Source of the DNA: an uncultured Desulfuromonadales bacterium
GTDB lineage: Bacteria; Desulfobacterota; Desulfuromonadia; Geobacterales; CAIOGM01
Length of the DNA: 34,861 nt
Assembly (NCBI GenBank): GCA_903929485.1
Contig: CAIYUY010000336.1
Location: 1 to 34,861 of the forward strand
Reading direction: 5' to 3'
Position 1 is the first letter of the stretch, and the number at the start of each line of letters is the position of its first letter. Position numbers and translations under genes: made by a program. Shown piece after piece: positions 25,486 to 34,861 of the stretch. A model generated the notes under the pieces. The model did not search any database and was not told the DNA's origin. It was given only the letters and a program-made list of their open reading frames with translations.

Positions 25486-26550
25486 CTATATTTTCCCTTT
25501 CATACTGAAGACATACGCGAGGATTTCCGCAACGGCGCCGTACAGACTCTCCGGGATTTCATGTCCCTCCTTGACCTGCTCGTACAACTCCCGAGCGAGA
25601 AATCTGTTTTCCGCGATCATTACCTTGTGCTCCCGCGCGAGCTCCTTGATCCGCTGGGCAAGGTTATCTGTTCCCTTGGCAAGGACCATGGGCGCAGCCA
25701 TCCGTTCCCGATCATATTTCAGAGCCACGGCGTAATGGGTAGGATTCGTTATGATGACATCGGCCAGAGGAATGAGTTTCTGCATGCGGCGACGCGCCTG
25801 GGCAAATTGGAGACTCCGTATTTTCCCTTTAATAAGCGGATCTCCTTCCGAATCCTTATGCTCCTGCTTGACCTCTTCCTTGGTCATCTTGATGTTCGAA
25901 GTAAAACGCCACCGGACATAAAATAGATCGAGAACGGCCAAAACGAACAGGACACCGCAACTATTGAGGATCAACCGAAAGGAGAGGCGGCTGACGTAGG
26001 AGAATACGTCGTCCAGATCCCGCTCTCCCAGAAACGTCAACGTCTCCGCCTCACCACGGATGATCCCATAGGCGATATACCCCACAATGGTGATTTTCAA
26101 GGATGATTTCACCATCTCCACCACGGCGTCCTTGTTGAAAAGCCGCTTGAAGCCGCTGAGTGGATTCATGTTTTCGAATTTTAGCGACATCTTCTCCCAG
26201 TTGAGCGACACATCTCCCTGGGCATAATGGAGGGCAACCCCCGATACCATGACGGTGATCAGAAAGGGACCAAGAACCAGCCCCATGATTCCAAAAAATT
26301 TAACCATGAGACCATAGACTCCTCCCTCGGTGACCTGGGAAGGCTCAAGATTGGCCAGTATCTCCCGACTGCTCTTTTCCAGAGTGGAAAGCATGTTACG
26401 ACCGGTGATGAAGAGGATAATAATTCCCGCAAGGAGGGTTATGGTGGAATTAAGGTCGCGACTTCGGGGGGGGCCGCTTTCTTTCAGCGCATCATCACGC
26501 CGTTTACCGGTGGGTTCTTCTGTTTTTGAATGTTTGTCTTCATCCGCCAT
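25486..26550 (-). CDS. flhB: Flagellar export switch protein FlhB
   Basis: The 354-residue protein opens MADEDKHSKTEEPTGKRRDD, the standard FlhB start. Four TM helices lie in the first ~215 residues, and the cytoplasmic domain follows (KMTKEEVKQEHKDSEGDPLI, then KGKIRSLQFAQARRRM). The autocleavage motif NPTH is at about residue 268, in VIITNPTHYAVALKYD. FlhB cleaves between N and P and, on a signal from FliK, switches export from hook to filament substrates. It follows fliR by 4 bp and ends the fliL operon. flhA does not follow; the kinase cassette does. Length and all key residues are normal. Confidence 0.97.
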   Translation of the reverse strand: MADEDKHSKTEEPTGKRRDDALKESGPPRSRDLNSTITLLAGIIILFITGRNMLSTLEKSSREILANLEPSQVTEGGVYGLMVKFFGIMGLVLGPFLITVMVSGVALHYAQGDVSLNWEKMSLKFENMNPLSGFKRLFNKDAVVEMVKSSLKITIVGYIAYGIIRGEAETLTFLGERDLDDVFSYVSRLSFRLILNSCGVLFVLAVLDLFYVRWRFTSNIKMTKEEVKQEHKDSEGDPLIKGKIRSLQFAQARRRMQKLIPLADVIITNPTHYAVALKYDRERMAAPMVLAKGTDNLAQRIKELAREHKVMIAENRFLARELYEQVKEGHEIPESLYGAVAEILAYVFSMKGKI

Positions 26551-30976: not shown

Positions 30977-31876
30977 CTATCTCACCATCTGGATGGCATC
31001 GTTGGTCAGCTGATCATTAACGGTAATTGTTTTTGAGTTGGCGGAGTAAGCCCGCTGGGTGACAATCATATTAACCATCTCCGAAGCCATATCCACGTTA
31101 CTGGACTCAAGGGAGTTGGCGACCATTTTTTCCGTGGGTGACAGGATACTTCCGGCGGCATTGGCATAGGAGGCAGGCACACCGGCGGAAGGGGTTGCGC
31201 CATAGGTGGAATCGCCATTCTTCTGCAGTTCCCCCGGCACAAGAACCCTGATCACGCCGATTTTACCGGTTCCGGCAGCCGTCATCGCCAAACCATTGGT
31301 GTCCAAGGCATGAATCGTGCCATCGGCGTCAATCGCGTTGATTTTACCGAATGTTCCCACCACACCTCCCGCGGGTGCGGCCCCAGGGGTCCATGTGGCA
31401 AAATTTATGGAAGAACCGGCGCTATCCAGAACGAACTTCCCGTCCGGGTTCACCAGATAATTCCCCGCGGCCACGACGGGAGGCCCGGCGGAGGCGGCAG
31501 TATTGCTGACGGCGAACGAACCTGCCTTGGTCAGCTTCGCGGAGGTATTAGTATTCACGTTGGCGACGACCGTGGTCGGATCGGTCGTCACCGCAAAAAA
31601 GAGATTATCTCCTTGCAGCGCCACGTCGGAGATATTGGATGTAGTCTGCAGGGAGCCGCCATAGAACTGGTTCTCAACCTTCTGAACCTGGGTGCCGAGG
31701 CCGACCTGGGAGTTGTTATGGCCGATACTCTGGGAAAGGAGATCGGAGAAGATGGTGCGAGCGTCTTTATAGCCGATAGTATTGACGTTGGAGATGTTGT
31801 TACTGATGACGCCCATGGCTTCACTCTGGGCTTTCATGCCGTTAACACCGGTAAACATTGCTGATGTAATACTCAT
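30977..31876 (-). CDS. flgE: Hook protein FlgE, short form
   Basis: The 299-residue protein has the rod/hook N-terminal helix MSITSAMFTGVNGMKAQSEA, continuing MGVISNNISNVNTIGYKDAR, with the typical TIFSDLLSQS. The C-terminal D0 helix is LESSNVDMASEMVNMIVTQR, AYSANSKTITVNDQLTNDAI. Position after fliK, flgD and the TIGR02530 gene argues for FlgE rather than a rod protein. It is short (E. coli-type FlgE is ~400 residues), and the middle is Ala/Gly/Pro/Thr-rich, suggesting that an outer domain is reduced. FlgE monomers form the hook, whose length is set by FliK. AAGGAG lies 7 nt before the ATG. It is 223 bp from the previous gene, with two 7-bp-period arrays and a hairpin between. Confidence 0.85.
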   Translation of the reverse strand: MSITSAMFTGVNGMKAQSEAMGVISNNISNVNTIGYKDARTIFSDLLSQSIGHNNSQVGLGTQVQKVENQFYGGSLQTTSNISDVALQGDNLFFAVTTDPTTVVANVNTNTSAKLTKAGSFAVSNTAASAGPPVVAAGNYLVNPDGKFVLDSAGSSINFATWTPGAAPAGGVVGTFGKINAIDADGTIHALDTNGLAMTAAGTGKIGVIRVLVPGELQKNGDSTYGATPSAGVPASYANAAGSILSPTEKMVANSLESSNVDMASEMVNMIVTQRAYSANSKTITVNDQLTNDAIQMVR

Positions 31877-31969: not shown

Positions 31970-32046
31970 GGTTTTGGGTTCTAGGTTCTAGGTTTTGGGT
32001 TCTAGGTTCTAGGTTCTAGGTTCTAGGTTCTAGGTTCTAGGTTCAA
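31970..32046. repeat. Tandem heptanucleotide array (GGTTCTA)
   Basis: Eleven contiguous 7-bp units fill 77 bp. Eight are exact GGTTCTA, two are GGTTTTG (31970 and 31991), and the last is GGTTCAA. A further degenerate unit may precede at 31963. The array lies in the gap between the TIGR02530 gene and flgE, and 7 is not a multiple of 3, so it is non-coding. Such short arrays change length by replication slippage. Confidence 0.92.
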
Positions 32047-32064
32047 GTGCGTAAAATTCGTTTT

Positions 32065-32099
32065 CCATTATCAATTATCAATTGTCCATTATCAATTAA
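32065..32099. repeat. Second, AT-rich 7-bp-period array
   Basis: Five heptads follow in series: CCATTAT, CAATTAT, CAATTGT, CCATTAT, CAATTAA, giving a 14-bp direct repeat of TCCATTATCAATTA at 32064 and 32085. The array abuts the TAA stop of the TIGR02530 gene at 32100. It has the same period as the neighbouring GGTTCTA array but an unrelated sequence. Confidence 0.75.
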
Positions 32100-32492: not shown

Positions 32493-33146
32493 TCACCCCC
32501 CTACACCTATGACGTTAGCCAGCGGCACATCGACCCCACCCGCCGTCAGAACCGGGTTACTCTGATCGGTTTTGATCCCGGAAACGACCGCTTTGATGAG
32601 TGGAGTACCGGTAGATGTGCTCCCATCCTTATTGACCCCGGAAACGGAAAACGAATAGTGTCCGGCAGCCGCTTGCGCCCCATTACTATCCAACCCATCC
32701 CACGCCATGCTCCCCTGACCAGTCGCCGCACTTCCACCTGTCAGCACCCGAACGACGGAACCGGAGTTATTCTGAATCGACACTTTAACCTGATCCGTCG
32801 GAGAGGCCAGACTGTAGTTAATTTGAGAGGTTCCACCGGCAGCCAGCTGAATATCCGAACCTTGGGCGGTAATCGTCTTGCCGATATACGAGACTGTGGA
32901 TGAATTCGACTGACCGTTAAGCGCGGCAATGACGCTGGCCAGGTTAGTATTTGTATTGTACGCCTGCTCCACCTGGGTAAGCTGAGCCATCTGCGCCACC
33001 ATGGCATTACTATCGGTAGGATTAAGCGGATCCTGATTTTGCAACTGCGTAACAAACAGCTTCATAAAATCATCTTTATTGAGACCGGTCGTTTTTTTCA
33101 TGCTGGCGTCTGCGGCAGTCGTGTTCGTTGTAACGGCAGTTACCAT
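32493..33146 (-). CDS. flgD: Hook-capping scaffold protein FlgD
   Basis: The 217-residue protein has the FlgD N-terminal signature GLNKDDFMKLFVTQLQNQDP, then LNPTDSNAMVAQMAQLTQVE, and a C-terminal FlgD Ig/tudor-like region containing GSMAWDGLDSNGAQAAAGHY and SFSVSGVNKDG. FlgD caps the growing hook and directs FlgE assembly; it does not remain in the mature structure. ATG 33146 is preferred; a GTG three codons earlier abuts the ribosome-binding site, which spaces well (8 nt) to the ATG. A σ54 promoter lies 51 bp upstream. Confidence 0.93.
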   Translation of the reverse strand: MVTAVTTNTTAADASMKKTTGLNKDDFMKLFVTQLQNQDPLNPTDSNAMVAQMAQLTQVEQAYNTNTNLASVIAALNGQSNSSTVSYIGKTITAQGSDIQLAAGGTSQINYSLASPTDQVKVSIQNNSGSVVRVLTGGSAATGQGSMAWDGLDSNGAQAAAGHYSFSVSGVNKDGSTSTGTPLIKAVVSGIKTDQSNPVLTAGGVDVPLANVIGVGG

Positions 33147-33196
33147 CTCGTTCACCCCCTTCTGTTTTTCCTACAACACTACTTACTGAATCTCTT

Positions 33197-33381: not shown

Positions 33382-34861
33382 TCAAGCACGGACATTTACC
33401 AGTGATTCGTCTCCGTCTTCATCAGCTTTCGCCCCCTTGGATTCCGGCAAAGCGGTGAGTTCAGCCTGTCGGGCAAATTGCCGTGGGGCATTGTTCCGTT
33501 GCTCACCGGTATCTCCCGTGAAAGCCTGATTGGAACTGTTGCCGTTGGCGCCCGTGGAAACATCAAAGCGCTCCATGGTGAAATTTTGCTTCAACAGCGT
33601 CTCTTTAAGACCTTCCATGTTATTCATCAATGCTTCTCGCACCGAACGATTCTCGGAAATGACCTCAACTTTCAGCCGCTGCTGTTCCACCCGTACGTTG
33701 ATGGTCAATTCGCCCAAATCTTCCGGGTTGAGCTTCAGCGAAATACTGCTCGTACCCTTACCGTCATGAATTGGTTCGGCGTGTTTCACCTGGGAAAAGA
33801 TGCTCTCTTTAAGCGCGTTCCTAACTTCATCCGGACTGGACGGGGCTGACGTCGGCACAGTTTCGCGGCTCTCCACAACATGGGGAACAGCCATGTTGAA
33901 GGCTTGAACAGGTATCTGTTCTTTTCTCTTACTCTGAGAACCCGGCTGGTCTTTACCTTCCGAAGGCGAAGAATCTCCTGAAGAAGATTTCGCAAAGGTG
34001 ACGTCCACCTTGGCGCTGGTCAGTTTTCCGTCATCGGCAGTCGCTCCCTGAGTGGGCGCCGTATTTCTGTCATCGTTATCAACAGCAATCCCTTTACGCG
34101 CTGTTTTTACGACGGACGCCACCGGCTTTAACTGAGCGACATTAATCTCCCCAATCGTGTTCTCTGCTTTCAAATTAACCTGTGCATTCTGAGGTTCATT
34201 AGCAAGCGCCATCTGCGGTCCATCCAGCAGATTGCCTTTTTCCTTCCCCGCAATTACGGCATCGGGCAGTGTCGTCCTGGCATCTGAGTTATCATATTTG
34301 ACAGTAGCGCCGGAAACGGTCGTGGCGGCCGGAGCCTCAGAGATCACGGTCTCCGGTGCGACTGCCGCTGACGCTACCGATACCGGCGACGATGCTACCG
34401 GCTCGCTAACTGCCGCGATGGGCGCCGACGTCACTGCCTGTTGTGGCGCCGAGGCTACGACCCGCGGTTGAATCGCAGTCTCAACAGCGAAAGAAGCTAC
34501 ACTCCGGACAGGAGTGGCGCTCTCTTGCCGAGAAGCGGAAGGAGCCACCGTTGCGGTCGCCACATTGCCGACTACCGGAGCTTCAATGGTCACGGCTGCC
34601 GGTGCGACTGCTGCTGACACGACCGATACCGGAGACGATGCTACCGGCTCGCTGACTGCCGCGATGGGAGCCGACGTCACCGCCTGTTGTGGCGCCGAGG
34701 CTACGGCTTGCGGGCGAATCGCAGTCTCAACAGCGAAAGAAGCTACACTCCGGACAGGAGTAGCGCTCTCTTGCCGAGAAGCGGAAGGAGCCACCGTTGC
34801 GGTCGCCACATTGCCGACTACCGGAGCTTCAATGGTCACGGCTGCCGGTGCGACTGCTGCT
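33382..34861 (-). CDS. fliK: Hook-length control protein FliK (N-terminus outside window)
   Basis: The frame is open to the window edge, so at least 493 residues are present and the start is missing. The C-terminal Flg_hook domain is clear: SISLKLNPEDLGELTINVRV, EQQRLKVEVISENRSVREAL, then LKETLLKQNFTMERFDVS. This domain contacts FlhB to stop hook export. The N-terminal part is Ala/Val/Pro/Ser-rich, as expected of an exported ruler, and is made of an 82-residue (246-bp) tandem repeat, with two full copies visible and a third entering at the edge. A polar tail of ~50 residues follows the FliK domain. FliK is secreted while the hook grows and its length sets hook length. It is 235 bp from flgD. 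Confidence 0.9.
   Translation of the reverse strand, partial: AAVAPAAVTIEAPVVGNVATATVAPSASRQESATPVRSVASFAVETAIRPQAVASAPQQAVTSAPIAAVSEPVASSPVSVVSAAVAPAAVTIEAPVVGNVATATVAPSASRQESATPVRSVASFAVETAIQPRVVASAPQQAVTSAPIAAVSEPVASSPVSVASAAVAPETVISEAPAATTVSGATVKYDNSDARTTLPDAVIAGKEKGNLLDGPQMALANEPQNAQVNLKAENTIGEINVAQLKPVASVVKTARKGIAVDNDDRNTAPTQGATADDGKLTSAKVDVTFAKSSSGDSSPSEGKDQPGSQSKRKEQIPVQAFNMAVPHVVESRETVPTSAPSSPDEVRNALKESIFSQVKHAEPIHDGKGTSSISLKLNPEDLGELTINVRVEQQRLKVEVISENRSVREALMNNMEGLKETLLKQNFTMERFDVSTGANGNSSNQAFTGDTGEQRNNAPRQFARQAELTALPESKGAKADEDGDESLVNVRA
34355..34861. repeat. 246-bp in-frame tandem repeat in fliK
   Basis: The landmark GGTGCGACTG begins at 34601 and near-identically at 34355 and 34847, each 246 bp apart, and CACATTGCCG recurs at 34561 and 34807. 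Two full units (34355-34600 and 34601-34846) differ at about 13 positions by my hand alignment (~95% identity), and a third unit starts at 34847 and runs off the window. The last ~130 bp of the two units differ at about one base. The period is 82 codons exactly, so copy-number change keeps the frame. Confidence 0.95.

Follow-up and report, generated by a model that had tools for sequence, protein, structure and literature searches.

Tandem 82-residue units in the FliK protein of a Geobacterales bacterium as a candidate repeat-built hook-length ruler

Here, we observe that fliK of an uncultured Geobacterales bacterium carries an in-frame tandem array of 82-residue units ahead of the C-terminal switch domain. 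On balance, we consider it probable that this FliK is a hook-length ruler whose central measuring region is built of these units, and that units are gained and lost in frame by unequal recombination. Both the route by recombination and the influence on hook length are inferred.

The window analysed, a stretch of 34,861 nucleotides, is the whole of contig C336 of the source genome (G000) and ends inside the array. Its terminal part (33382..34861, minus strand) is the C-terminal end of fliK, an open reading frame of 492 codons plus stop that is open at the contig end. The FliK C-terminus matches the Pfam domain Flg_hook (PF02120; 33538..33765, minus strand; E 1.2e-19, 70.3 bits, cut-off 29.8), i.e., the switch domain, as well as the structure of the Salmonella flagellar hook-length control protein (2rrl_A, PDB 2RRL; E 7.7e-4). 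Both matches bear out the identity that a first-pass annotation, made from the sequence alone, had given to the gene. The next gene downstream is flgD, encoding the hook cap (32493..33155, minus strand; Pfam FlgD). It is followed at some distance by a gene for an flgE-like hook protein of 299 aa (30977..31876, minus strand; Flg_bb_rod and Flg_bbr_C) and by flhB, encoding the export gate switch on which the FliK C-terminus would act (25486..26550, minus strand; Pfam Bac_export_2). The flgE candidate, the sole one noticed, matches terminal rod/hook Pfam domains only, and a similarly short candidate occurs in the congener G002. The spacer that separates the Flagellar_put gene from flgE contains heptamer tandem repeats (GGTTCTA and others) at 31977-32098; 7-bp repeats lie close by in both flagellated congeners, too (L008, 25-213; L043, 1740-1788).

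Tandem Repeats Finder (TRF) reports a period of 246 bp with 2.2 copies at 34329-34861. The unit corresponds to exactly 82 codons and is in frame with FliK. When 34355-34615 is shifted by 246 positions, 248 of 261 bases are identical (95.0%), while the next-best lag in the range from 60 to 600 reaches 39.6% identity. This is in good agreement with the annotated in-frame units of about 95% DNA identity. The array itself was annotated where it is found, but it starts at 34329, slightly before the annotated 34355, and across the full unit the two complete copies in the window are 92% identical. The C-terminal-most complete unit is located at 34329..34574 and the second at 34575..34820 (both minus strand, TRF), and repeat finding places part of a third unit, truncated where the contig stops, at 34821..34861 (minus strand). 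An exact copy of the final 99 bp of the contig is present at 34517-34615. A repeat of this length suffices to halt short-read assembly and accounts for the break at this point.

In a search of the source genome, which is assembled in 369 contigs, the only other contig with the array was C96. The left end of C96 holds 886 FliK codons (minus strand) with six more 82-residue units, in line with the expectation that the array continues past the window edge; fliJ, fliI, fliH and fliG, named from their sequences, lie behind fliK. Since fliJ on C96 and flgD on C336 give the usual order fliG-H-I-J-K-flgD, the two contigs were joined. Comparing the unit register base by base, the gap between them spans 29 bp and, in addition, zero or more whole units of 246 bp. 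A gap of 29 bp keeps the reading frame, and the spanning unit then comprises 55 + 10 + 17 = 82 residues. The joined FliK thus has a minimum of 886 + 10 + 492 = 1,388 residues, roughly double what is typical of FliK in the phylum. Extending the gene towards its start and counting the units, as had been proposed, yields at least eight units of 82 aa and one decayed unit of approximately 78 aa; as exact repeats interrupted the assembly, the count is a lower bound. At the C96 end, the exact repeat measures only 51 bp, and there is no overlap between C336 and C96. These two observations hint at further units missing between the contigs but do not prove it. A Pfam search with the 886-aa N-terminal part of FliK, where an export signal and a FlgE/FlgD-binding region would be expected, gave no match. 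The first-pass annotation was right to put the repeat ahead of the C-terminal switch domain, but its assignment to the N-terminal region does not hold: on C96, the array begins after approximately 340 residues, which makes its position central.

All units are exactly 246 bp long, with pairwise DNA identities of 70-93%. Nei-Gojobori dS between units ranges from 0.13 to 0.70, and the ratio of mean dN to mean dS is 0.41; units N503 and N831, for example, differ by 2 nonsynonymous and 10 synonymous exchanges. Judged by this ratio (approximately 0.4), the amino acids of the units are under purifying selection. The units had been described as near-identical and recent. High identity does apply to the two complete units in the window, but a recent duplication is overstated in view of these dS values and of the purifying selection. 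By eye, a distinctive VASFA.ETA stretch is common to the first and the two final units, and the units in between carry a different one, which suggests exchange or block duplication.

Homologous units of 79 aa were found in the congener G001. They are 81-93% identical to each other, 44-58% identical to those of the source genome, and form their own group in a unit tree with moderate support (0.84-0.86). Since units cluster by species, the array has turned over since the split from this congener. The array in G001 is cut off by the end of its contig, where an exact repeat of 119 bp is found, and the N-terminal half of the gene lies on another contig. In G002, fliK runs off its contig, and the contig carrying fliI ends 124 bp beyond this gene, before fliK. 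Each of the three flagellated MAGs of the genus thus has an fliK assembly that runs into a contig end. In the congener G003, no FliK match was found, and there were only distant ATPases in place of FliI; it is thus probably not flagellated.

Arrays in fliK are not confined to this genus. Taking as an array any tandem repeat with a period of at least 12 and a score of at least 90, we find one in 12 of 46 further fliK genes from the order, with periods of 15, 18, 24, 27, 30, 42, 54, 90, 114, 237 and 321, all divisible by 3. The flanking regions, which have twice the total length of fliK and served as control, contain arrays in one of 46 cases, and outside the order, within the same phylum, one of 43 fliK genes of similar mean length does so (Fisher p approximately 0.002 for each contrast, with species that are not independent samples). 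Between genera the units are unrelated, e.g., VEVQPQAR in 28 copies in the two-contig genome G034, which include 20 identical 24-mers, a unit of 30 aa in 5.5 copies in G009, and one of 107 aa in 2.7 copies in G006. Three species of genus g5 carry arrays of different units ahead of the same W-x-x-Y landmark. In genus g13, EVATA occurs three times in G043 versus once in its sister species G055, while the C-terminal domain aligns nearly gap-free. One genome per species was compared, so that copy-number differences are differences between species. At this level, the repeat number in fliK is not constant between sister species, and the clustering of units by species indicates turnover of the array. 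A 1,372-aa frame in G183 was rejected as a giant FliK, as it is mostly read-through upstream of the real gene and antisense to another frame. In G092 (L097), a FliK-like frame of 1,256 aa has just a small 51-bp repeat, which shows that large FliKs are not always repeat-built. Most genomes of genus g5 (L115-L128) have a second Flg_hook protein of approximately 700-740 aa without tandem repeats. A search of a limited set of papers for FliK with tandem repeats or VNTRs returned no description of such arrays, which is weak evidence of absence.

How could such an array act? In Salmonella FliK, length is measured by the N-terminal domain and the linker, and export is switched by the C-terminal domain, which binds FlhB (PMC6972891). 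Changes in the length of the measuring region alter hook length (PMC6972891, PMC6126814), and controlled hooks grow linearly by 0.2 nm per added residue between 363 and 785 aa (PMC6126814). The array described here is flanked by the N-terminal region on one side and by the FlhB-switch domain at the C-terminus on the other, a position matching the Salmonella region where length sets hook length, as the ruler reading of the first-pass annotation would have it. Each unit would thus add a fixed length to the ruler, approximately 16 nm per 82 residues at the Salmonella value, or more if the chain is extended. The measuring region of this FliK is probably disordered. An AlphaFold2 model of two units, computed from a six-row alignment, has a mean pLDDT of 43.7 and no structure, which suggests a disordered array. 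Unequal recombination between units would then change copy number in frame on an evolutionary time scale. We regard the ruler reading as plausible and prefer it, as it fits the known biology of FliK and YscP. Two points speak against it. The calibration of 0.2 nm per residue stems from helical inserts, while the unit here is rich in Ala, Val, Ser and Pro and has no predicted structure. Furthermore, 1,388 residues would extrapolate to hooks of approximately 250 nm, a value far beyond the tested range that assumes the whole array to be ruler. In soft agar, Salmonella with short and with long hooks both swim worse (PMC6126814), and a ruler of this minimum size with such hooks might, by analogy, be selected against.

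A different view holds that the array is a tolerated, largely passive growth of a disordered linker and that other parts of FliK set hook length. The predicted lack of structure would suit this, as would the emergence of unrelated repeats at similar places in several species and genera and the location of the hook-protein-binding parts of Salmonella FliK in the N-terminal domain (PMC6972891). We nevertheless consider it rather unlikely: the dN/dS of approximately 0.41 between units indicates constrained residues, arrays are rare (1/43) in the FliKs of other orders of the phylum, whose mean length is similar, and linker deletions, too, shorten the Salmonella hook (PMC6972891).

Unit number might also change frequently within a population, as in a contingency-type locus, and provide heritable, selectable hook-length variants. 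The exact repeats with which contigs end (99 and 119 bp), the 20 identical 24-mers in G034 and the contig ends met by fliK throughout the flagellated MAGs of the genus would suit such a locus, but at dS values of 0.13-0.70 most copies are old, and we give this explanation little credence. That the extra units are an assembly artefact is highly improbable. The contig is indeed broken within the array and the genome is fragmented into 369 contigs; however, a check for assembly error came out against it, as all units differ from each other (70-93% identical) and are thus not assembler copies of one unit, and genomes assembled into just one or two contigs (G009, G034) contain arrays of this kind, too.

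Returning to the preferred reading of a repeat-built ruler, repeatedly grown fliK repeats may be the way in which hook length evolves in the order. More tentatively, and with less than even confidence, the ruler region of the Geobacterales-type fliK could be a recurrent birthplace of in-frame arrays of unrelated units at comparable positions, such that hook length evolves in discrete unit steps, reaching at least 250 nm in some lineages. With units of 8, 30, 82 and 107 residues and different chemistry, the arrays provide naturally occurring variants in the length of a molecular ruler. These could be used to test whether hook length tracks FliK length in bacteria other than Salmonella, and whether a residue of a disordered ruler covers more nanometres than one of a helical ruler. 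Short-read assemblies of the group break in fliK, so FliK lengths taken from them are lower bounds.

Among known length rulers, the tape-measure proteins of phage tails scale in size with the structure, but they represent an unrelated protein and assembly route. Salmonella FliK shares the C-terminal Flg_hook domain, a long region before the switch domain and the flagellar gene context (here fliG-H-I-J on C96 and flgD 3' of fliK in the window), but has 405 residues (PMC6972891) versus at least 1,388 with at least eight tandem 82-residue units. The closest natural precedent is YscP, the needle-length ruler of the Yersinia injectisome, whose length varies naturally by repeat number: among strains of Y. 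enterocolitica, it differs by motifs of 14, 25 and 46 aa, and its size is reported to be linearly related to needle length (PMC3469391). YscP belongs to an injectisome instead of a flagellum, comprises 452-538 aa, and was compared between strains of one species, whereas the FliK arrays described here were compared between species.
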